48,623 bases of DNA, taken from positions 1 to 48,623 of the IMG/VR virus record IMGVR_UViG_3300035670_007543. One strand, 5' to 3'. Below the pieces are notes generated by a model that saw only the letters and a list, made by a program, of their open reading frames with translations, did not search any database and was not told where the DNA came from. The position numbers and the translations under genes were made by a program. This stretch comes from a virus. Of this stretch, positions 7,057-16,383 are shown piece after piece (within the stretch, counting starts at the first letter, position 1; each line of letters starts with the position of its first letter).

Positions 7057-7584
7057 TTAGTTCCTTTTACGCGAGTCCCACCTATAAAATATATGGTCTT
7101 CTATCGCTGCTACCTTTGTAAACTGCTTTCTCCAGTAAGGAGAAACTGCAGTAGAATGATAATGTGTTGCCCCGTTTGTTACATCTAAGTAATTACCCAT
7201 AAGGGCATTTCTAGCTATTGAAATAGCATAATATTTTTCTTCCGACTCTAACATTCTATCAGGTTTTCCATCACAATACCAGCTAAATTGACATTTGTCT
7301 TTAATTGGCTTTCCATTGCGATCTTTTTTAGCCTGAGTAACTACTGAGCATACTGAGTCTGGGAATCTTGAATCACTAACTCTATTTAGTGTTACTTGTG
7401 CTACAGCAATTTGACCTCTAAAACTTTGATTACGGGCTTCAAAGTATATATTCCTTGCTAAACACATAACATCAGCTGTAGAGTAAGAGTGCACGACAGG
7501 AATTACAGTAGGAGTGGTACCAACGCTAGCGCTACTTGCACTAGCACTGTATATGAGGAGAGAAGTAAGTAGTCCTTTGATCAT
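7057..7584 (-). CDS. SleB-type cell wall hydrolase (endolysin)
   Basis: 175 aa. A short hydrophobic start (MIKGLLTSLLIYSASASSAS) looks like a signal or signal-arrest peptide. The Hydrolase_2/SleB domain follows: CLARNIYFEARNQSFRGQIA with the catalytic Glu at 49, VAQVTLNRV, CQFSWYCDG and ATHYHSTAVSPYW. The family cleaves peptidoglycan glycan strands. The export signal suggests it can reach the periplasm without depending wholly on a holin hole. The start lies inside the Fpg/Nei gene (44 nt overlap). Confidence 0.88.
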   Translation of the reverse strand: MIKGLLTSLLIYSASASSASVGTTPTVIPVVHSYSTADVMCLARNIYFEARNQSFRGQIAVAQVTLNRVSDSRFPDSVCSVVTQAKKDRNGKPIKDKCQFSWYCDGKPDRMLESEEKYYAISIARNALMGNYLDVTNGATHYHSTAVSPYWRKQFTKVAAIEDHIFYRWDSRKRN

Positions 7585-8383
7585 CTAGTATCACCTTTTC
7601 AACTTTATTTCCGTAGATATCTGTTTTTTGGTTATATACTAGTAGTCTTGACTTCTTTGGGTATGACCCTTCTTCTCCGTATAAATCTTTATACGTTTGA
7701 ATAGTAGATCCGCCCGTTTTATATGCTTCTTTTAAAATACTGATTATGCTATTATATAGGGTAACAAGTTCTGAATCTGATAAGTCTTTTACGTAGTTTA
7801 GCGGAGAAATTTTAGATAAAAATAAGCTCTCACTTTTATAAATATTGCCTACGCCACTAATATACTTTTGCTCCATAAGAAACTTAACGATAGATTTATC
7901 ATTATGTTTCCGAGCTATTTCCAAAAATTTAGACACACTACAAGGATTATTTAACATATCTGGACCGATAGAGTCCAATTTTTTATTCAAGATATTTCTA
8001 TCATTTACAAACTTAATCGTCCCGAAATTTCTAGTGTCTTCATAGAAAATAGGAAACGACTCTGTGTATCTATTATAGGCTTTAGTAACCTCAAATAGAA
8101 CTCTAGAATGAGCACTATTTTGTAAAGAGTAACGTCCACTCATGCCTAGAGTGGAGAAAATGAACCAGTCATGCTCAAGTTCCCACCAAATGAATTTTCC
8201 TTTGTTATAAACACCTTTAACAAGCAGAGCGCCCCTATTAAGGGCGCTCTCAAACTCAAAAAAATTGTCAGGTGCTTTTTTACTATACCTACCCGATAAA
8301 ACTGTAATAGAATCTAAAAGAGTATTCTTTACTACAGAGTTAAGCTGAGTAGCTACTCTAGTAACTTCTGGCCCTTCAGGCAT
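7541..8383 (-). CDS. Fpg/Nei-family DNA glycosylase with a zincless finger
   Basis: 280 aa. The N-terminus MPEGPEVTRV holds the catalytic Pro2 and Glu3; a lysine pair at 61/63, TLGMSGR (78-84), the H2TH region LMEQKYISGVGNIYKSE (169-185) and the finger text DDQRTTYFSPHIQ (267-279) are all in place. The four zinc cysteines of the finger are missing; the only Cys there is the last residue. This resembles NEIL1 and viral Nei 'zincless finger' enzymes. It would remove oxidised bases. The retained Arg (270) is the one that contacts the lesion site in the family. Confidence 0.88.
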   Translation of the reverse strand: MPEGPEVTRVATQLNSVVKNTLLDSITVLSGRYSKKAPDNFFEFESALNRGALLVKGVYNKGKFIWWELEHDWFIFSTLGMSGRYSLQNSAHSRVLFEVTKAYNRYTESFPIFYEDTRNFGTIKFVNDRNILNKKLDSIGPDMLNNPCSVSKFLEIARKHNDKSIVKFLMEQKYISGVGNIYKSESLFLSKISPLNYVKDLSDSELVTLYNSIISILKEAYKTGGSTIQTYKDLYGEEGSYPKKSRLLVYNQKTDIYGNKVEKVILDDQRTTYFSPHIQC

Positions 8384-9067: not shown

Positions 9068-9310
9068 TTGAAAAACGTAAAAGCATACTATACAGATAAC
9101 AATAGACTGTATGTAGAAAAAGAAGCTTTAATGCTTACTCAAAATGGTATAGAAGTAGAGCTTGTAGATGCAAAAACTCTGCCTAAAAATATCTTAACTC
9201 CTTCATTTGTTATTTTTAAAAATGGTGGCATGTTGTCTAAATTAAATGGAAAGTTTACACCCGGATTAGTACTGTCTTGGGTAAAAAAATATATAAAGGA
9301 AACTATATGA
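9068..9310 (+). CDS. Thioredoxin-fold protein lacking cysteines
   Basis: 80 aa from a TTG start with AGGAG well placed (GCAGGAGAATTAAG before it). It reads like a small glutaredoxin: beta strand VKAYYTDN, helix EALMLTQNGIEVELVDA, then ILTPSFVIFKNGG with the cis-Pro loop (TPS) and strand. There is no cysteine at all, so it cannot be a redox enzyme; it may be a protein-binding derivative. It overlaps the bS21-like gene by 4 nt (ATGA). Confidence 0.65.
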   Translation: MKNVKAYYTDNNRLYVEKEALMLTQNGIEVELVDAKTLPKNILTPSFVIFKNGGMLSKLNGKFTPGLVLSWVKKYIKETI

Positions 9311-9582
9311 AAATTAGTGTAAAACGCTATAGTAACGACGTATCCAGAGCATACAGAGTTATGATGAGAAAACTAAATGCTGAAGGGTATTATACCGATA
9401 CTAAACGTAAAGCATTTTATGTATCTAAAAGTGAGCAGGCTCGCGAAGATAAAAAAGCAGGCACGGCTAGATATAAAAAAGCAGAATCTAAGCGCATAGC
9501 GTTACTAGACAAATTAGAACAAAAACAAGGCTTTACAAAAACAAAAAAACCGCATAAGTCAGAACGTACTAGCAAAGAGTAA
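9307..9582 (+). CDS. bS21-like ribosomal protein
   Basis: 91 aa from the ATG at 9307, chosen because AAGGA precedes it and it couples to the previous stop. MKISVKRYSNDVSRAYRVMM then EGYYTDTKRKAFYVSKSEQA follows bacterial S21: an N-terminal strand, a basic helix, the 'hrrxFYxkPsexr' turn and a second long Lys/Arg helix (DKKAGTARYKKAESKR). It is longer than usual S21 (about 70 aa) by a Lys-rich tail. S21 sits at the 30S platform near the anti-Shine-Dalgarno, so a phage copy could change which mRNAs are initiated. It lies immediately before the tmRNA. Confidence 0.72.
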   Translation: MKISVKRYSNDVSRAYRVMMRKLNAEGYYTDTKRKAFYVSKSEQAREDKKAGTARYKKAESKRIALLDKLEQKQGFTKTKKPHKSERTSKE

Positions 9583-9602
9583 TTTTTAAATTTAAATTTT
9601 TG

Positions 9603-9631
9603 TTGCTATGTGCTATTTTCTATGTTAAATT
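9603..9631 (+). promoter_or_regulatory. Promoter-like element for tmRNA, TTGCTA-17-TAAATT
   Basis: TTGCTA (9603-9608) and TAAATT (9626-9631) are 17 nt apart in the AT-rich gap after the bS21 gene. A start a few bases downstream would fall at about 9638, just at the 5' edge of the tmRNA acceptor piece. The -10 is weak (4 of 6), but the -35 belongs to the TTGCT type repeated elsewhere in the window. Confidence 0.45.
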
Positions 9632-9635
9632 TAAT

Positions 9636-9698
9636 GAGTAATCGTTGAAGCAGACGATAGACATTCTGGACCCGGTTTCGATACCGGCGGCTCCACCA
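9636..9698 (+). ncRNA. tmRNA acceptor piece
   Basis: Contains the 3' half of the tRNA-like domain: ATCGT/ACGAT hairpin (9640-9657 region), the P2 strand (9660-9668), a T-arm-like hairpin with CCGG stems and TTCGAT in the loop (9672-9687), the 3' acceptor strand and an encoded ACCA end (9695-9698). The T-loop closes irregularly (T9676-A9683), a small departure from the canonical seven-base loop. The 5' boundary is a guess. Confidence 0.85.
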
Positions 9699-9801
9699 TA
9701 GGTACACTCGGTTGGGTTTCAAGTTTAACTTGACTAAGAGGGTGCTGGCTATCCTATAAAATCCTGCCAGCACATTAGGATTATCCGAGTGTATCTTTGA
9801 T
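9699..9801 (+). other. Intervening segment of permuted tmRNA precursor
   Basis: 103 nt between the CCA end and the GGGG start. It begins and ends with complementary strands, TACACTCGG (9703-9711) and CCGAGTGTA (9785-9793), a 9-bp closing stem. Inside are CAAGTT/AACTTG and GTGCTGGC/GCCAGCAC hairpins. In known two-piece tmRNAs this segment is cut out of the precursor; the strong closing stem would hold the two cleavage sites together. Confidence 0.75.
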
Positions 9802-10011
9802 GGGGCCGAAAGGGATTCGACAGGTGTTGAAAAGACGTGGAGATTACCGTGGTGGCTTACGATATTCGGCCAACTTTACAAATGCAAACGATAACTTTGC
9901 ACCTAAGGAATTTGCACTAGCTGCATAATCCTGTGGGCGGGCCACCGGCCTAGAAACAGAAATGGTGGTGTTTTCATAAAATTTAGTGGGGTCACTACCT
10001 AATAAGTGCGC
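9802..10011 (+). ncRNA. tmRNA coding piece with proteolysis tag ANDNFAPKEFALAA
   Basis: Starts at GGGG (9802). The resume codon is GCA at 9884; 14 codons give ANDNFAPKEFALAA and stop at TAA (9926-9928). The ANDNF start and ALAA end are classic SsrA-tag features; ALAA is read by ClpXP. After the tag, CTGT (9932-9935) and ACAG can enclose a loop whose CCACC can pair with a downstream GGTGG, a likely pseudoknot. AGTG/CACT forms a further small hairpin. The PK1 pseudoknot before the tag cannot be assigned with confidence by eye. Confidence 0.88.
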
Positions 10012-10041
10012 GCTGTGCCACGGTTAGCACAGCATTTTTTT
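10012..10041 (+). terminator. Rho-independent terminator of tmRNA
   Basis: Perfect 7-bp stem GCTGTGC / GCACAGC (10012-10018 and 10027-10033) with an 8-nt loop, followed by A and seven T. It closes the bS21/tmRNA transcript and separates it from the glycan cassette. Confidence 0.85.
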
Positions 10042-10055
10042 ACATAGAGAGCTCA

Positions 10056-10646
10056 ATGAAAATAATATCAGCTAACAGCCTTCAAGATTCTAGTATTCTT
10101 AAGAATAATTATATTCATGAAAGTGTAGTTTTTATAACTGAAGATGAAAATTTTGGAATCAGTATAGGAACTAACAATACTATAATGGCAGGCTGTGTAA
10201 TCTTTGCGGGATCTAGCTATAGAGAAAATACTGTTATTGGTAATAATAACTATATTGGGCCTGGTACAACCATACAATCAGATGCTTTAATTGGTAGTAA
10301 CAATAATTTAGAAGGTTCTAACTTTGTAAGCCATCATAGCTGTATTATGAATCATGCTACTATTGAAGCAGGAGCCACGATCAGTCCTTATAGTACAGTT
10401 GGGAGCTGGTCAGTGTTAGGAACCCTAACACCTTTAGTAAAAGATGCTAAGCCTTTCTCAAAAGTTTTTGGTAATCCTGCAGTTTCTAAAGGTATAAATT
10501 CTTCTAAAGTATTTAAAGAGCACTTCTCAGAGTTAGAAGTATTAGAGATTAAACAATATCTCAAAGACAAGATACCTCCAGTATCTCCTTATGTAGTAAG
10601 TATTCTTGACGAGTTTGAGAATCAGTCGCGAAAGAAAGCACTATGA
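10056..10646 (+). CDS. Hexapeptide-repeat acyltransferase (left-handed beta helix)
   Basis: 196 aa. From about residue 35 to 125 it shows the six-residue rhythm of LbH enzymes (IGTNNTIMAGCVI, VIGNNNYIGPGTTI, LIGSNNNLEGSNFVSHHSCI), then VGSWSVLGTLTPLVKDAKP and KVFGNPAVSKG, the classic end of sugar O- and N-acyltransferases with the FGNPA motif. It would acylate a sugar amine or hydroxyl. GAGAGCTCA lies before the ATG. First gene of the seven-gene glycan cassette; stop overlaps the next start (ATGA). Confidence 0.87.
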   Translation: MKIISANSLQDSSILKNNYIHESVVFITEDENFGISIGTNNTIMAGCVIFAGSSYRENTVIGNNNYIGPGTTIQSDALIGSNNNLEGSNFVSHHSCIMNHATIEAGATISPYSTVGSWSVLGTLTPLVKDAKPFSKVFGNPAVSKGINSSKVFKEHFSELEVLEIKQYLKDKIPPVSPYVVSILDEFENQSRKKAL

Positions 10647-11416
10647 TAATTTTATATAGGGCATCAGAAGCTAATAAGTCTCCTGGTAGTGTATCTGATG
10701 GTTCTCAGGATAAGCCTCGTTGGAATGGAAGAAAAAAAGACGAGATCTTTCGTAAGTGCTGGCTATCGCTACAGCAAGATCTTGAAGGCTGGGCCGATAG
10801 AATCGTTGTTCTAGCCGACAAAGTTACAGAAGAAACTAAGCAGTGGATGCGTGATACTTGTATCATTCCTACTAAGCTAGAGATTCGTGATATCCCCCCA
10901 AGAACAGAAGTTCCTCCTTATGGAACCCATCCTTATCCTCAATATCATCCCGTAACAATTAATACTTGTATACCTTTCATGGAGACTCTCATTAAGCTAT
11001 GTGAGCAGTATCCTGAAGAGGTTATATACTGCTGCGAAGACGATTACCTTCATACCCATGGAGCTATAAAGATTTTAAAGAATCTTTACTCTGCTGGGTA
11101 TGAAGGTTTTTATTTACCCTATGACTACCCTGATAGATACTTTGACAGAGATAGACACTGTGAAGTCTTAGTAGGGCCAGACTGCCACCTTAAAACAGTA
11201 TGCAGTGCTACTCTAACAATGGCTGGAAAAGGTAAAACATACTTACCGTTTAAATACTCTATTCTTCAAGCTGGAATCTTCTCTGATGATTCTTGGACTT
11301 GGAAAGCTTTTAGACAAGGTGTAGCTGTTTGCCCTCTACCAGGAACTAGCACTCACTTACAAGATAACTGTATAACTCCTGTAGTAGATTGGAATGAAGT
11401 ATGGAATCAGTGGTAA
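10643..11416 (+). CDS. Glycosyltransferase-like protein (GT-A-like, phage type)
   Basis: 257 aa. It starts with a short strand (MIILYRASEANKSPG), has WADRIVVLADKVTEET as a Rossmann-like second strand, and VIYCCEDDYLHTHGAIKIL at about 127-145, where EDDYL is a likely metal-binding DxD-type motif. HLQDNCITPVVDWNEVW closes it. Similar proteins occur beside glycan genes in phages, as far as I remember. Donor and acceptor unknown. Coupled to both neighbours (4 nt and 16 nt overlaps). Confidence 0.65.
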   Translation: MIILYRASEANKSPGSVSDGSQDKPRWNGRKKDEIFRKCWLSLQQDLEGWADRIVVLADKVTEETKQWMRDTCIIPTKLEIRDIPPRTEVPPYGTHPYPQYHPVTINTCIPFMETLIKLCEQYPEEVIYCCEDDYLHTHGAIKILKNLYSAGYEGFYLPYDYPDRYFDRDRHCEVLVGPDCHLKTVCSATLTMAGKGKTYLPFKYSILQAGIFSDDSWTWKAFRQGVAVCPLPGTSTHLQDNCITPVVDWNEVWNQW

Positions 11417-12432
11417 TTACAGGAAGCGCAGGCCTTATTGGAAGTCATCTATGCTACAAGTTTCTAGAACTAGGCTGGACTGTAGTAGGAGTAGATAACC
11501 TTATTGGAGGTTATGAGTCTAATATGCCAGACGATCCTAACTTCTTTTACGAGAACGTAGATATTCTAGATAACCAAACACTAGCCTCTATTTTTAAAGA
11601 ATATAAACCATCTTTAGTTATTCACTGTGCCGCGTTAGCCCACGAAGGGCTAAGTGTATTTGCGCCTAAAACCATTGTAGAAAATATCTATGCAGGCACA
11701 GCCTCAGTAGCCAGCGCCGCTATCGCGGCAGGTGTTAAATACTTTATTAATACTACTTCTATGGCTCGCTATGGAAATATTGAACCCCCTTTTGAAGAGC
11801 ATATGCAGCCTTCACCAGTAGATCCATATGGATTAGCTAAGTTACATGCAGAACAGCACTTAAACCTAATGAGCGATATTCATGGGATTAAAGTATTTCA
11901 TATGGTTCCGCATAATGTTTGTGGCCCGCATCAGTGCTATAGTGATCCATTCCGTAACGTAATGAGTATCTTTGCCAATCTAATTTCTAAAGATAAACCT
12001 GTTTATATCTATGGCGACGGAACACAGAAGCGCAGCTTCTCACATGTAAAAGACTGTGTTGATGCTTTTGTTACTGTATGGAATAAACGTGAAGAGATTA
12101 GCTCTAAAGAAGTATTTAACATTGGGCCTAGCCACGGAACTGAAACTACAATACATGAGTTAGCCAATAGAGTAGCTGCACATTTTAACAAACCTGTAGA
12201 TATTAAATTTGTACCTGAGCGTCCTCGTGAAGTTAAAAATGCGTGGGTTAGCACTCAAAAAGCTGAAACTCTGCTAAACTACCAAGCTGATACTTCTATG
12301 GAAGAAACTATTCGTGATACAGTATCATGGATGAAGACTCAGCCTGAGCGCGATTTTAACTATCATCTTGAATTAGAGATAGTTACAGATGCGACCCCTA
12401 GCACTTGGAAAGATAAGTTGTTCAACAAATGA
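11401..12432 (+). CDS. NAD-dependent sugar epimerase/dehydratase (extended SDR)
   Basis: 343 aa. Cofactor motif TGSAGLIG (7-14), VVGVDNLIGG with the Asp that binds adenosine ribose (32), CAALAHEG (76-83), NTTSMARYG (117-125) and the catalytic YGLAK (Y143, K147). C-terminal GDGTQKRSFSHVKDCVDAF and NIGPSH are standard for UDP-glucose 4-epimerase and dTDP-glucose dehydratase relatives. It makes an NDP-sugar for the surrounding transferases. The sugar cannot be deduced. It overlaps the GT-A-like gene by 16 nt. Confidence 0.92.
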   Translation: MESVVITGSAGLIGSHLCYKFLELGWTVVGVDNLIGGYESNMPDDPNFFYENVDILDNQTLASIFKEYKPSLVIHCAALAHEGLSVFAPKTIVENIYAGTASVASAAIAAGVKYFINTTSMARYGNIEPPFEEHMQPSPVDPYGLAKLHAEQHLNLMSDIHGIKVFHMVPHNVCGPHQCYSDPFRNVMSIFANLISKDKPVYIYGDGTQKRSFSHVKDCVDAFVTVWNKREEISSKEVFNIGPSHGTETTIHELANRVAAHFNKPVDIKFVPERPREVKNAWVSTQKAETLLNYQADTSMEETIRDTVSWMKTQPERDFNYHLELEIVTDATPSTWKDKLFNK

Positions 12433-13403
12433 CGCATGTAGTATTTATAAACACACAAGCTTTTGGTGATTGCATATTCGGTATCAACGCCGCCAGAAGA
12501 TATAAAGAAGAGCACCCTGATCACCTAGTGTCTTATTGTTTAACAAATAATTTTAATCTAACTACAAATGATGGGCCTACAGGTACCGCAGAAGCATTAG
12601 AAGTACTAGAAAAACAACTCTGGCTAGATGCAGTAGGATTAGTAACTTTTTCTCCACAAGGTCAGATACAAAGTATGCAAATCAACAGGCAAGAGCCTGA
12701 GTTTAAGCAAGTAGATAGTATTATAATGCACTATCGCTGGTTTTCTGATCTAGGTATTTCTAGAAGTACAAATCATCCTATTAAACATCTTATTAGTAAG
12801 GATAGTTATGCAGACGGAAATATTCAGTTAGTAGTAGGCTCAGAAAAACCAAAAGATGACATCATACGTATTGGTATTGCAGGCCCACTAGACTGGAATC
12901 GTAAGTTACAATCTGAAGCACTAAGAATAGAAGTACTACAAGGCATAAAACAAGTAATGGATAAGACTAATAAGCCTTATGAAGTTACTATGTTTGGAGT
13001 AGAAATGGCTAATTATACTTTGCACCAAACACTTATGCTATTAAATAGACAATCTATTTTCATAGCGCCTACAGGGTCACTTATACATGCTGCTGCGGCG
13101 CTAGACGTAGATACTATAACTATAGGTAGCGTATTTCCTGCAGAATATGAGTCGCCTGAATACTATATGACTAGAGGCCGCCATTTTACAGTAAAGGCAA
13201 CACCAAATAATCATTGTGACACTTTTAAATGTGTAATACCTAAAAATAGTGAAGACTCTAATAATAGTCCTGGTAATCCACCTGCTACTTTAGGATTCTG
13301 GCCTCGTCTATGTACACATACTAGTAGTGGGCTTTCTTGCACTAAAACGTACACAGCAGATCAAATTATGCACAATTTTGAAAGATGGGTAAATGGCGTA
13401 TAA
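12429..13403 (+). CDS. GT9-like glycosyltransferase (heptosyltransferase-like)
   Basis: 324 aa. The start, VVFINTQAFGDCIFGINAAR, resembles the GT9 opening 'iGDvvlttP'; the middle IRIGIAGPLDWNRKL and especially IFIAPTGSLIHAAAALDVDT correspond to the GT9 donor-binding loop before a Rossmann strand. GT9 enzymes use ADP-heptose, which fits the HldE-like genes at the left end, though they are more than 10 kb away. C-terminal CDTFKCVIPKN and cysteines are unusual and may form a separate small site. Confidence 0.72.
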   Translation: MTHVVFINTQAFGDCIFGINAARRYKEEHPDHLVSYCLTNNFNLTTNDGPTGTAEALEVLEKQLWLDAVGLVTFSPQGQIQSMQINRQEPEFKQVDSIIMHYRWFSDLGISRSTNHPIKHLISKDSYADGNIQLVVGSEKPKDDIIRIGIAGPLDWNRKLQSEALRIEVLQGIKQVMDKTNKPYEVTMFGVEMANYTLHQTLMLLNRQSIFIAPTGSLIHAAAALDVDTITIGSVFPAEYESPEYYMTRGRHFTVKATPNNHCDTFKCVIPKNSEDSNNSPGNPPATLGFWPRLCTHTSSGLSCTKTYTADQIMHNFERWVNGV

Positions 13404-14172
13404 AAACGTAAACAATCCTATTGTGATAACTCCTTATTTATTTGAACAAGAAGTTCAAGAGTTAAAACGCGCACTAGGATGGAAAATTCCTTACGAATTT
13501 TGGCAAGATGTAGGACAGATAGGTAGTGATTTAGCCTATCAATACTTATGGAACAAATATAGGGATAGAGATGTAATCATTCTACATGCAGATATGATGC
13601 CTCTCCCAGAAGATACTACTAATAAGTGGTACAGTGATTTGCTAGACATAGTAGATACACATCCAGAAGCAGGTATCTTTGGAATGAAGCTGCTCTATCC
13701 AAGAAAAAATGAAAATAACCAGTATATTATCCAACATGCTGGCGGGAGATTTGAAAAGAATGGTGAAGCAGTACATTTCGGAGGAGGACTTAACCTCATT
13801 GATGGAACAGCAAATAAAGAACTGGAAGCAGACTCGGGACAATACGACAAACTTAGAGAAGTTTCCTGGGTTACTATGGGCGGCGTATATATCCGCGCTG
13901 CTAGTCGTAATGTTGTTGGTAATTTTGATCCCCGTTATTATTGGACTTACTATCGTGATGTGGATTGGTGCTTGTCTGCCCGCCGCGCTGGTATCAAAAT
14001 TTATCAAACGGGTATCCCTCTTCTTCACTTCGAAGGAAAAGACAACAAAAGACTAATGGCAAATAATCCTGCTCTTGGCGAAAAGTGGGGAATTAATCGC
14101 TCTATTTTCATGGAAAAGTGGAATGGCTCTGAGGAAATGAAAACTATTGACCGTGAGGTAACAAATGCGTAA
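13393..14172 (+). CDS. Family 2 glycosyltransferase (rhamnosyltransferase-like)
   Basis: 259 aa. DVIILHADMMPLP (56-68) holds the metal-site region; EAGIFGMKLLYP, WVTMGGVYIRAASRNVVGNF and YYWTYYRDVDWCLSARRAG are the conserved core of GT2 enzymes of the WbbL type, with the acidic catalytic pair in YRDVD. The N-terminus is short compared with typical members, which start with the nucleotide-binding strand. Overlaps by 11 nt with the GT9-like gene and by 8 nt with the next transferase. Confidence 0.82.
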   Translation: MAYKNVNNPIVITPYLFEQEVQELKRALGWKIPYEFWQDVGQIGSDLAYQYLWNKYRDRDVIILHADMMPLPEDTTNKWYSDLLDIVDTHPEAGIFGMKLLYPRKNENNQYIIQHAGGRFEKNGEAVHFGGGLNLIDGTANKELEADSGQYDKLREVSWVTMGGVYIRAASRNVVGNFDPRYYWTYYRDVDWCLSARRAGIKIYQTGIPLLHFEGKDNKRLMANNPALGEKWGINRSIFMEKWNGSEEMKTIDREVTNA

Positions 14173-14983
14173 AAAAAGTGTAATCAGTTTAATCTCGTAT
14201 GACGCTGCATACCTAGCGAATTCCATTCGCACCTACTATAACTATGTAGACGAAATTGTACTAGGACTAGACCAGGATAGAATCTCATGGAGTGGTAATA
14301 AGTTTTCTTTTGACGAAGAAACTCTTTGGAAAGAACTATCTCAAATTGATGGTGACGGTAAGATTAATGTTGTTGAAGGTAACTTCCATCGTAGCCGAGT
14401 CCCCATTGAAAATGATAATCACGAACGTAACTATCTAAAAGAGCACTGCACCCACGACTGGATTTTTAGTTTTGATGCAGATGAAGAGCTTGTAAATGCG
14501 CATGACTACTTTACAAAGTTCTGTCCACTGGTAGAATCTTATAACCTAGATCATATGTTCTACTGGATTCTACCTTATAAGCGTTTACCTAATGGAGAAA
14601 TATTAGTTATTACTCGTGAAGATGGTAATCTACAGAATAATGAAGTTCAAGGTTTTGTGACTAATCGTGAAAATACCTATAACTATTGTCGCTGGACAAA
14701 TAATCAACAGCGTATTCAGTCTCCACTAGCTATTCTTCATTGGAGTTTCTGTCGCCCACCTGAAGAGTTGAATCTAAAAATTAATAACTTTGGTCATAGC
14801 ATTGAATCTAAAAAAGATCCTTTCTATGATATTCAAGCGCGAGTAGATGAAAATAACTATGAGCAGCTAAAGAACTTTAAGACAAGTAACATGGGTCCTC
14901 AATGGGAAAAGCTTACTAAGATTAAAGAAGCGGATCTACTAAGCTACTGCAAAACTCAAGCCAAACTAATGTACGGAGCCTAA
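14165..14983 (+). CDS. Glycosyltransferase-like protein (GT2-type fold)
   Basis: 272 aa. It begins RKKSVISLISYDAAYLANSI; YVDEIVLGLDQDRISWSG gives the second strand and WIFSFDADEELVNAHDYF the DxD motif (DAD). These are the marks of small GT2-like enzymes that keep a beta-1,4-glucosyltransferase type layout (IRTYYNYVDEIV). The C-terminal half is unlike the common families. Acceptor unknown; the neighbours suggest stepwise assembly of one glycan. Confidence 0.72.
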   Translation: MRKKSVISLISYDAAYLANSIRTYYNYVDEIVLGLDQDRISWSGNKFSFDEETLWKELSQIDGDGKINVVEGNFHRSRVPIENDNHERNYLKEHCTHDWIFSFDADEELVNAHDYFTKFCPLVESYNLDHMFYWILPYKRLPNGEILVITREDGNLQNNEVQGFVTNRENTYNYCRWTNNQQRIQSPLAILHWSFCRPPEELNLKINNFGHSIESKKDPFYDIQARVDENNYEQLKNFKTSNMGPQWEKLTKIKEADLLSYCKTQAKLMYGA

Positions 14984-14984
14984 T

Positions 14985-16106
14985 ATGTTAATCGAACTTG
15001 TTGGAAAATTTTATGATAATCACTCACTATCTATTGTAAATAGATACCTAGCGCTTCAACTTAGTAAGTATGCTAAAGTGATTATTTCTCCTATTGATAG
15101 CTTTAAGCCAGAGGCTAAACTATCACTAGACACTCTAGAAGCACTAGAGTCTTTAAAAGCTAAGGCAGAAGATACTACTGCACCTGATGTGCAGATTAGA
15201 CACACCTATCCGCCAATTTGGCGCTGGCCAGCTTCTAATGAAACTAAAGTAGTATTTATTCAGCCGTGGGAGTTTTCAAAAGTTCCTTTTGAATGGCAAT
15301 ATAAATTTGAGAATTTTGCAGACGCACTAATCACTTTTACTCGTTGGACAGCTGCTGTATACCATGAAGGCGGTATAAATCCTGAAAGGCTCTTTGCTAT
15401 TCCTATTGGGTACAATCCTGATATTTTCTACACTGATAGAAGTGTTAAAAAGACAGATAAATACAAGTTTTTATTTGTAGGCTGCGATCAGTATAGAAAA
15501 GGTTTTGATATTCTTCTTCAAGCGTGGGCTAATACTTTTAAGTCTACAGACAATGTAGAGCTTATTGTAAAAGATACCCCACAAGTATATGGTAAAACTG
15601 CTCTACAAGAGCAACTTATTAAACTTCAATACCAACATAATATAGGAAAGATTACTTATATTGATGATGGCTATTCTGAAAAAGAAATGGCTGATCTATA
15701 TAGAAGTGTCGATGTAATTGTGCATCCTTATCGTGGAGAAGGATTCGGTATGCCAATTCAAGAAGCTATTGCTTGTGGAGTAATTCCGCTTGTAACAGGA
15801 CGAGGCTGTACAGACGAGTTTGTTACAGACTACAAAATTAAATCTTCACAAAAACTAGTAGATATTAATAACATATTTGCTGGTAAGCCAGGAGACAGCT
15901 TTAATCTAATGGGTTCTCACACTTGGGTCATTGAGCCTGATATTCCAGACTTAATGCAGAAAATGAGAATGCTATATGACTCTAGAAAGAGAGCTATTCC
16001 TCGCAGCGATAAAATTAGAACATGGGATGAAGTAGGAGAGCAGTACTATAAAGCTATTAAAGCTGTGCACGACTATCCTACGATAAAAAGAGTTCATGGA
16101 AATTGA
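14985..16106 (+). CDS. Family 4 glycosyltransferase (GT-B)
   Basis: 373 aa. The donor-binding C-terminal domain is clear: KYKFLFVGCDQYRKGFDILL, then ADLYRSVDVIVHPYRGEGFG, PIQEAIACGVIPLVTG with the GT4 E-x7-E signature (GEGFGMPIQEAIA). The N-terminal domain is short (about 145 aa). It transfers a sugar from an NDP donor with retention of configuration. Last gene of the cassette; it overlaps the PC4-like gene by 11 nt, so sugar and regulatory genes share one transcript. Confidence 0.88.
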   Translation: MLIELVGKFYDNHSLSIVNRYLALQLSKYAKVIISPIDSFKPEAKLSLDTLEALESLKAKAEDTTAPDVQIRHTYPPIWRWPASNETKVVFIQPWEFSKVPFEWQYKFENFADALITFTRWTAAVYHEGGINPERLFAIPIGYNPDIFYTDRSVKKTDKYKFLFVGCDQYRKGFDILLQAWANTFKSTDNVELIVKDTPQVYGKTALQEQLIKLQYQHNIGKITYIDDGYSEKEMADLYRSVDVIVHPYRGEGFGMPIQEAIACGVIPLVTGRGCTDEFVTDYKIKSSQKLVDINNIFAGKPGDSFNLMGSHTWVIEPDIPDLMQKMRMLYDSRKRAIPRSDKIRTWDEVGEQYYKAIKAVHDYPTIKRVHGN

Positions 16107-16383
16107 TTTAGGATTTGTAGGCTTTCTAACTGAAGATAAAGCTATCAAAATTACGATAAATGAGTTTAGAGGCCAAGAGTATGTTCACATTCGTGAATAT
16201 ATGAGAGACGGTGACACAGGTCAGTGGTTTCCTACCAAAAAGGGACTAGCATTAAGACCTGAGCACGTAGATATGGCTGCACACTTATTAGATCAAGCAG
16301 GTGAAATACTTGCAAAAACATATTTAAAACAAACTGGTGTTTATGATAAACAGCTAGAAATGTTTGAAGAGGGAGAGGAATAA
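16096..16383 (+). CDS. PC4-like single-stranded DNA-binding protein
   Basis: 95 aa. IKITINEFRGQEYVHIREYM then GQWFPTKKGLALRPEHVDMA matches the PC4/Sub1 domain: two strands ending in R-E-Y, then the 'PTKKGL.L' turn and a helix. PC4 proteins bind ssDNA and melted promoters as dimers. Phage and bacterial copies are known and proposed to act in transcription or replication. It is tied to the next gene (1 nt overlap). Confidence 0.8.
   Translation: MEIDLGFVGFLTEDKAIKITINEFRGQEYVHIREYMRDGDTGQWFPTKKGLALRPEHVDMAAHLLDQAGEILAKTYLKQTGVYDKQLEMFEEGEE

Follow-up and report, generated by a model that had tools for sequence, protein, structure and literature searches.

A circularly permuted tmRNA gene with a clamped intervening segment adjoins a bS21 gene in a siphovirus-like phage

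Positions 9637-10005 (plus strand) of the window, the whole 48,623-base linear virus record analyzed here, contain a circularly permuted tmRNA gene of the alphaproteobacterial type, which very probably encodes a functional two-piece tmRNA of the phage itself. In cmscan, Rfam tmRNA_permuted (RF04321) matched 9637-9928 over its full model (1-213) with 120 bits (E 5.6e-23), and alpha_tmRNA (RF01849) matched 9594-9971 with its whole model covered and 89.9 bits (E 3.5e-23), the gathering scores being 47 and 50 bits, respectively. The covariance search named as a check in the original prediction was therefore clearly positive. ARAGORN also reported a permuted tmRNA, at 9604-10019, with the tag ANDNFAPKEFALAA. 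The alpha_tmRNA score was lower than the best match (143-313 bits) of each of the 105 sampled alphaproteobacterial genomes above the cut-off, and a blastn search of the gene against 50,697 phage records gave no match.

The anatomy that had been read from the sequence was recovered, with the CCA-ending half (to 9698) preceding the GGGG-starting half (from 9802). The two Rfam alignments and the pairing counts delimit the acceptor piece, or 3' half (9637-9698, plus strand), comprising the T-arm, the acceptor 3' strand, A73 and the encoded CCA of the tRNA-like domain. The coding piece, or 5' half (9802-10005, plus strand, 3' end approximate), starts with GGGGCCG and includes the pseudoknot region, the tag frame and a 3' domain with GAAACAGAAA. 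The 7-bp acceptor stem (GGGGCCG/CGGCUCC) contains the predicted alanine identity pair, G3-U70, and the T-stem (CCGGU/ACCGG) closes a T-loop of 6 nt (UUCGAU). This short loop was rejected as a phage-specific trait, being present in the permuted tmRNA of Mesorhizobium and the standard tmRNAs of Bacilli. Helix P2, likewise predicted, is formed by 9661-9668 and 9821-9827, and a GUAAUC/GAUUAC pairing connects 9638-9643 with 9842-9847. The tag frame (9884-9928, plus strand), as read by ARAGORN, has a resume codon, a hydrophobic C-terminus and a stop codon.

An intrinsic-terminator-like hairpin (GCTGTGCcacggttaGCACAGC) followed by ATTTTTTT is located at 10012-10041 (plus strand). The terminator that the original prediction ascribed to the gene is thus present in the window and in the related viral contig L116, but it was absent from L003, L015, L042, L120 and L124. 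Around it, approximately 50 nt (9982-10033) were near-identical between the window and L116, though their tRNA-like halves were only about 70% identical, and this conservation exceeds the needs of a terminator. A candidate promoter (TTGCTA-16 nt-TTAAAT; 9603-9630, plus strand) lies in a block of the gap between bS21 and tmRNA that is conserved in the window, L116 and L003; it is a weak sigma-70 match that the consensus scan did not report. A repeated phage promoter motif was rejected because the AT-rich upstream element occurred only once in the window. The interval covered by the earlier prediction (9636-10041) begins a little downstream of this candidate promoter and of the bS21 gene, and that prediction missed both the directly adjoining bS21 gene and the clamp that closes the intervening segment.

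The window is a fragment of a siphovirus-like phage, and the linear contig may be incomplete. Its phage genes encode a DnaB-like helicase, DNA polymerase, SbcCD-like nuclease, ribonucleotide reductase, thymidylate synthase, PhoH, endolysin and a lambda J-like tail protein. On the minus strand, a formamidopyrimidine-DNA glycosylase-like protein (7541-8383) is kept in relatives. Downstream of the tmRNA, an operon-like run (10056-16106, plus strand) includes genes for a hexapeptide acyltransferase-like protein, a nucleotide-sugar epimerase and a group-1 glycosyltransferase, and is perhaps involved in surface or DNA glycosylation; a PC4-like coactivator (16096-16383) follows these sugar genes.

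Relatives were collected by similarity to the neighbouring DNA-glycosylase-like protein and the bS21 protein, and share the gene order. L003/L008, L116/L117 and L120 each had a full permuted tmRNA in the equivalent slot, downstream of bS21 and ahead of the next operon. Most of the gene was present in L118, where the contig end cuts off the rest, and L002 showed the acceptor half only, up to its contig end. The proteins flanking this slot have diverged to 39-88% identity. ARAGORN detected no tmRNA in L002-L009; nevertheless, absence from close relatives was rejected as an ARAGORN miss, because Rfam recovered the gene fully in L003/L008 and partly in L002. In total, the permuted tmRNAs of L003/L008, L118 and L124 were found by Rfam and missed by ARAGORN. 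The claim that the gene has been kept by phages is borne out by these syntenic orthologues, together with the covariation described below. Because the window comes from a metagenomic assembly and the gene is of the alpha type, host DNA or a chimeric contig might be suspected instead of phage DNA; however, phage genes are present on both flanks, and synteny in several independent viral contigs already refutes this reading, to which we attach next to no probability.

Base pairing was counted for 20 pairs of the acceptor stem, T-stem and clamp in 18 distinct viral genes. All cells were paired (356/356), with the limit that the alignment comprises clamp-bearing genes only, so that the 100% pairing of the clamp is partly due to choice; the compensatory changes in the clamp and the counts for the acceptor and T-stems are independent of this choice. 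Changes on both sides were observed at 13 of the 20 pairs, compared with 7.0 ± 1.3 in shuffles (0/500 as high), and pairing collapsed to 39-56% in slid-alignment controls. G3-U70 was invariant in 18/18 genes, while the neighbouring pairs vary; the acceptor stem of L120, for example, is GGGACCG/CGGUUCC, with A4-U69. The covariation and the invariant G3-U70 therefore indicate that selection maintains the tRNA-like structure, and the pairing pattern is, as judged from sequence comparison, the one expected if a charged tRNA-like domain is under selection. Since ssrA is a common integration site (PMC9004378), a passive remnant without function, either an integration-site copy of host ssrA or a relic of imprecise excision, was also considered. 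The covariation already speaks against it, both halves are complete and occupy the same slot in several relatives, and no integrase was found among the scanned window proteins, making a remnant very improbable.

The open tags of the relatives (ANDNFAIEDIRLAA, ANDNFAPSEFALAA, ANNNFAPVALAA and ANDNFAPEMRLAA) all end in LAA, and the pattern ANDN/ANNN...LAA is preserved despite nucleotide variation. SmpB (PF01668) had no match in the window or in 17 other viral records. The lack of an SmpB gene would also suit a tmRNA-like competitor that occupies host SmpB, AlaRS or ribosomes and blunts host rescue or tagging without performing trans-translation, and in E. coli the endogenous tmRNA is inhibited by a tagless tmRNA of phage DS6A (PMC11915505). 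Unlike that of DS6A, however, the present gene has a complete acceptor and mRNA-like domain, and its tag is intact, with resume and stop codons and an end conserved among relatives; a competitor role is therefore considered unlikely. Because no SmpB was found in the phage, ordinary trans-translation relying on host AlaRS, EF-Tu, SmpB and RNases is the most likely mode of action.

The intervening segment (9699-9801, plus strand; 103 nt), presumably removed during maturation, forms a strong stem and folds far better than shuffled sequences (z -4.5). Its ends form an 8-bp clamp (core 9700-9707/9789-9796) that begins 1 nt after CCA and ends 5 nt before GGGG, these 5 nt being mostly UUGAU or AUGAU in phages. 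Mononucleotide shuffling of the window segment produced 8/8 pairs at a rate of only 0.0006. The full 8-pair clamp in fixed register was found in 33 of the 40 distinct parsed viral permuted tmRNAs, including that of Methylophilales phage Melnitz, and in all 31 viral genes with a segment of at least 53 nt; this set was gathered by sequence patterns, and its members are phylogenetically non-independent. Compensatory changes occurred at 8/8 clamp pairs across phages. In one class-wide sample of 65 alphaproteobacterial genes, by comparison, a same-register clamp of at least 7 pairs was present in 6 and any stem of at least 8 pairs near the segment ends in 11, and the median segment length was 30 nt. 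The clamp prolongs the acceptor stem and would probably keep the halves joined until they are processed by RNase P and the 3' nucleases.

Several intervening segments contain ATG-started open reading frames running into the acceptor 5' strand: a membrane-like one of 36 aa with a Shine-Dalgarno sequence in L124 (5658-5768), a Cys-rich one of 47 aa in L003, and one of 54 aa with a Shine-Dalgarno sequence in Melnitz (L197). These may be due to chance. A reading frame in the segment of the window itself was rejected, as none was credible.

The gene upstream of the tmRNA (9307-9582, plus strand) encodes a 91-aa homologue of ribosomal protein bS21 and ends 54 nt before the tmRNA on the same strand. 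Its Pfam match (PF01165, Ribosomal_S21) was barely above the cut-off (27.3 vs 27 bits), and a profile of four phage homologues matched solved bS21 chains in the PDB (E 8e-5); a genome search also picked up the gene a second time. Searching viral contigs with these four homologues yielded nine loci, four of which were on contigs already in the comparison set, and in 9/9 a permuted tmRNA (the acceptor half in L002) was located downstream on the same strand. Most of the nine have a gap of about 55 to 155 nt; longer ones occur in L067 and L002 (approximately 0.45 and 0.9 kb, respectively) and in L124 (1.4 kb). Moreover, record G005 carries bS21 about 1.3 kb upstream of a tmRNA fragment at the contig end.

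This adjacency might simply be a phage gene order inherited by shared descent, with the two genes functionally unconnected; we give this reading close to an even chance, and it competes only with a joint role of the two genes. Most records with the bS21-tmRNA pair come from a single, broadly syntenic lineage, the two genes are about 10 kb apart in Melnitz, and in large-phage records carrying both, about 20 kb or more lies between them. On the other hand, a tmRNA following bS21 in the same orientation is kept in L124, where no other window protein is recognizable within 8 kb, and in L067, where several neighbouring genes are missing; in L002 the tmRNA still lies downstream despite two genes inserted between the pair. 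Inheritance of the adjacency from hosts was rejected: ssrA and bS21 were within about 3 kb in 3/40 alphaproteobacterial genomes (G113:C2:1765304-1768373, G077:C3:43430-46969 and G078:C59:21929-23657), in other orders, and not in the rest.

L015, a phage with almost nothing else in common with the window across its fetched region, has tRNA-like halves that are 97% and 96% identical to those of the window. In the wider comparison, the halves of the IMG/VR records L015 and L042 are 94-97% identical to those of the window and their tag (ANDNFAPKAYALAA) is near-identical, whereas the intervening segment, the pseudoknot region, both flanks and most genes are unrelated. Conversely, the flanks of the window resemble those of L116 (69% upstream; 86% downstream, including the terminator), whereas the halves are only 70-71% identical. 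The tRNA-like domain has thus been either exchanged between phages or held alike through a common host. Capture from a host, as originally proposed, is plausible at the root, but the nearest sequences found are those of other phages, and the exact T-arm and acceptor string was found in 8 viral contigs and in 0 of 84,980 bacterial and archaeal genomes. In L010, L012, L028, L037, L041, L065 and others, which are mutually distant, the permuted tmRNA lies between PhoH/exonuclease and endolysin genes; PhoH and PDDEXK genes also lie upstream of the Melnitz tmRNA, making this a recurring neighbourhood.

Phage-borne permuted tmRNAs as such are already known: among 18,146 phage genomes, 402 phages with tmRNA genes were reported in 2022, with 133 unique structures and 53 two-piece tmRNAs, 50 of the latter being marine or aquatic (PMC9004378). 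The earlier statement that they are little described is therefore not supported. Melnitz and pelagimyophages likewise carry a permuted alpha-type two-piece ssrA (PMC9004378). Melnitz resembles the window in its clamped intervening segment of similar length (142 nt vs 103 nt) and in its nearby PhoH and nuclease genes. However, Melnitz is a cultured 141-kb T4-like myovirus with a different tag, its bS21 is distant from ssrA instead of adjacent, and a glutamine riboswitch was reported in it (PMC9004378), whereas the window had no riboswitch match. The Melnitz case also shows that tmRNA type is unsafe as a host marker. Bacterial alpha_tmRNA (RF01849, for example, that of Caulobacter) shares the gene order, tRNA-like domain, G3-U70, ANDN tag start and 3' ACAGAA domain, but the window differs in its long clamped segment, 6-nt T-loop and lower model score. 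Proteins of the bS21 family are also encoded by HTVC008M and other phages, and the HTVC008M protein entered E. coli ribosomes (PMC6375957); that study does not mention tmRNA, which bS21 adjoins here. No description of an adjacent phage bS21-tmRNA pair was found in the literature searched, outside which most subscription journals lie, and the pair and the phage-enriched clamp may be undescribed.

In the proposed mechanism, the precursor would start near 9637, and its tRNA-like halves would pair across the clamped intervening loop. Cleavage by host RNase P would fall just ahead of GGGG (9802), and trimming by host 3'-end nucleases would stop at CCA (9698), giving an acceptor piece of about 62 nt and a coding piece of about 200 nt joined by base pairing. 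Host AlaRS would charge the tmRNA via G3-U70. With EF-Tu and SmpB, also presumably from the host, the tmRNA would enter ribosomes stalled on broken mRNA and append ANDNFAPKEFALAA, a putative ClpXP-type degron, to the stalled products. A tag end of LAA is the usual ClpXP degron. Function would have to depend on the SmpB of the host, as expected for a phage. What the phage might gain is the release of ribosomes caught on mRNA fragments, a safeguard should the host tmRNA be lost, or tag-directed degradation.

That bS21 lies next to the tmRNA speaks for a shared part of both in the takeover of host ribosomes, although common descent of gene order explains the adjacency at least as well. Tentatively, bS21 and the clamped tmRNA might form a small translation-takeover cassette in which bS21 would act in initiation on phage-marked ribosomes and the co-expressed tmRNA would recycle those stalled while host mRNA is being degraded; the clamp would give a maturation distinct from that of host pre-tmRNA, and some segments would also carry a small open reading frame. 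As a simple signature at the sequence level that is enriched in phages, the clamp could assist in annotating permuted tmRNAs missed by ARAGORN. With this gene, ribosome rescue encoded by phages reaches a siphovirus-like lineage, where it is physically tied to a phage bS21, and the bS21-tmRNA pair offers a concrete, testable unit for asking how phages may govern initiation as well as rescue on the ribosomes of their hosts.
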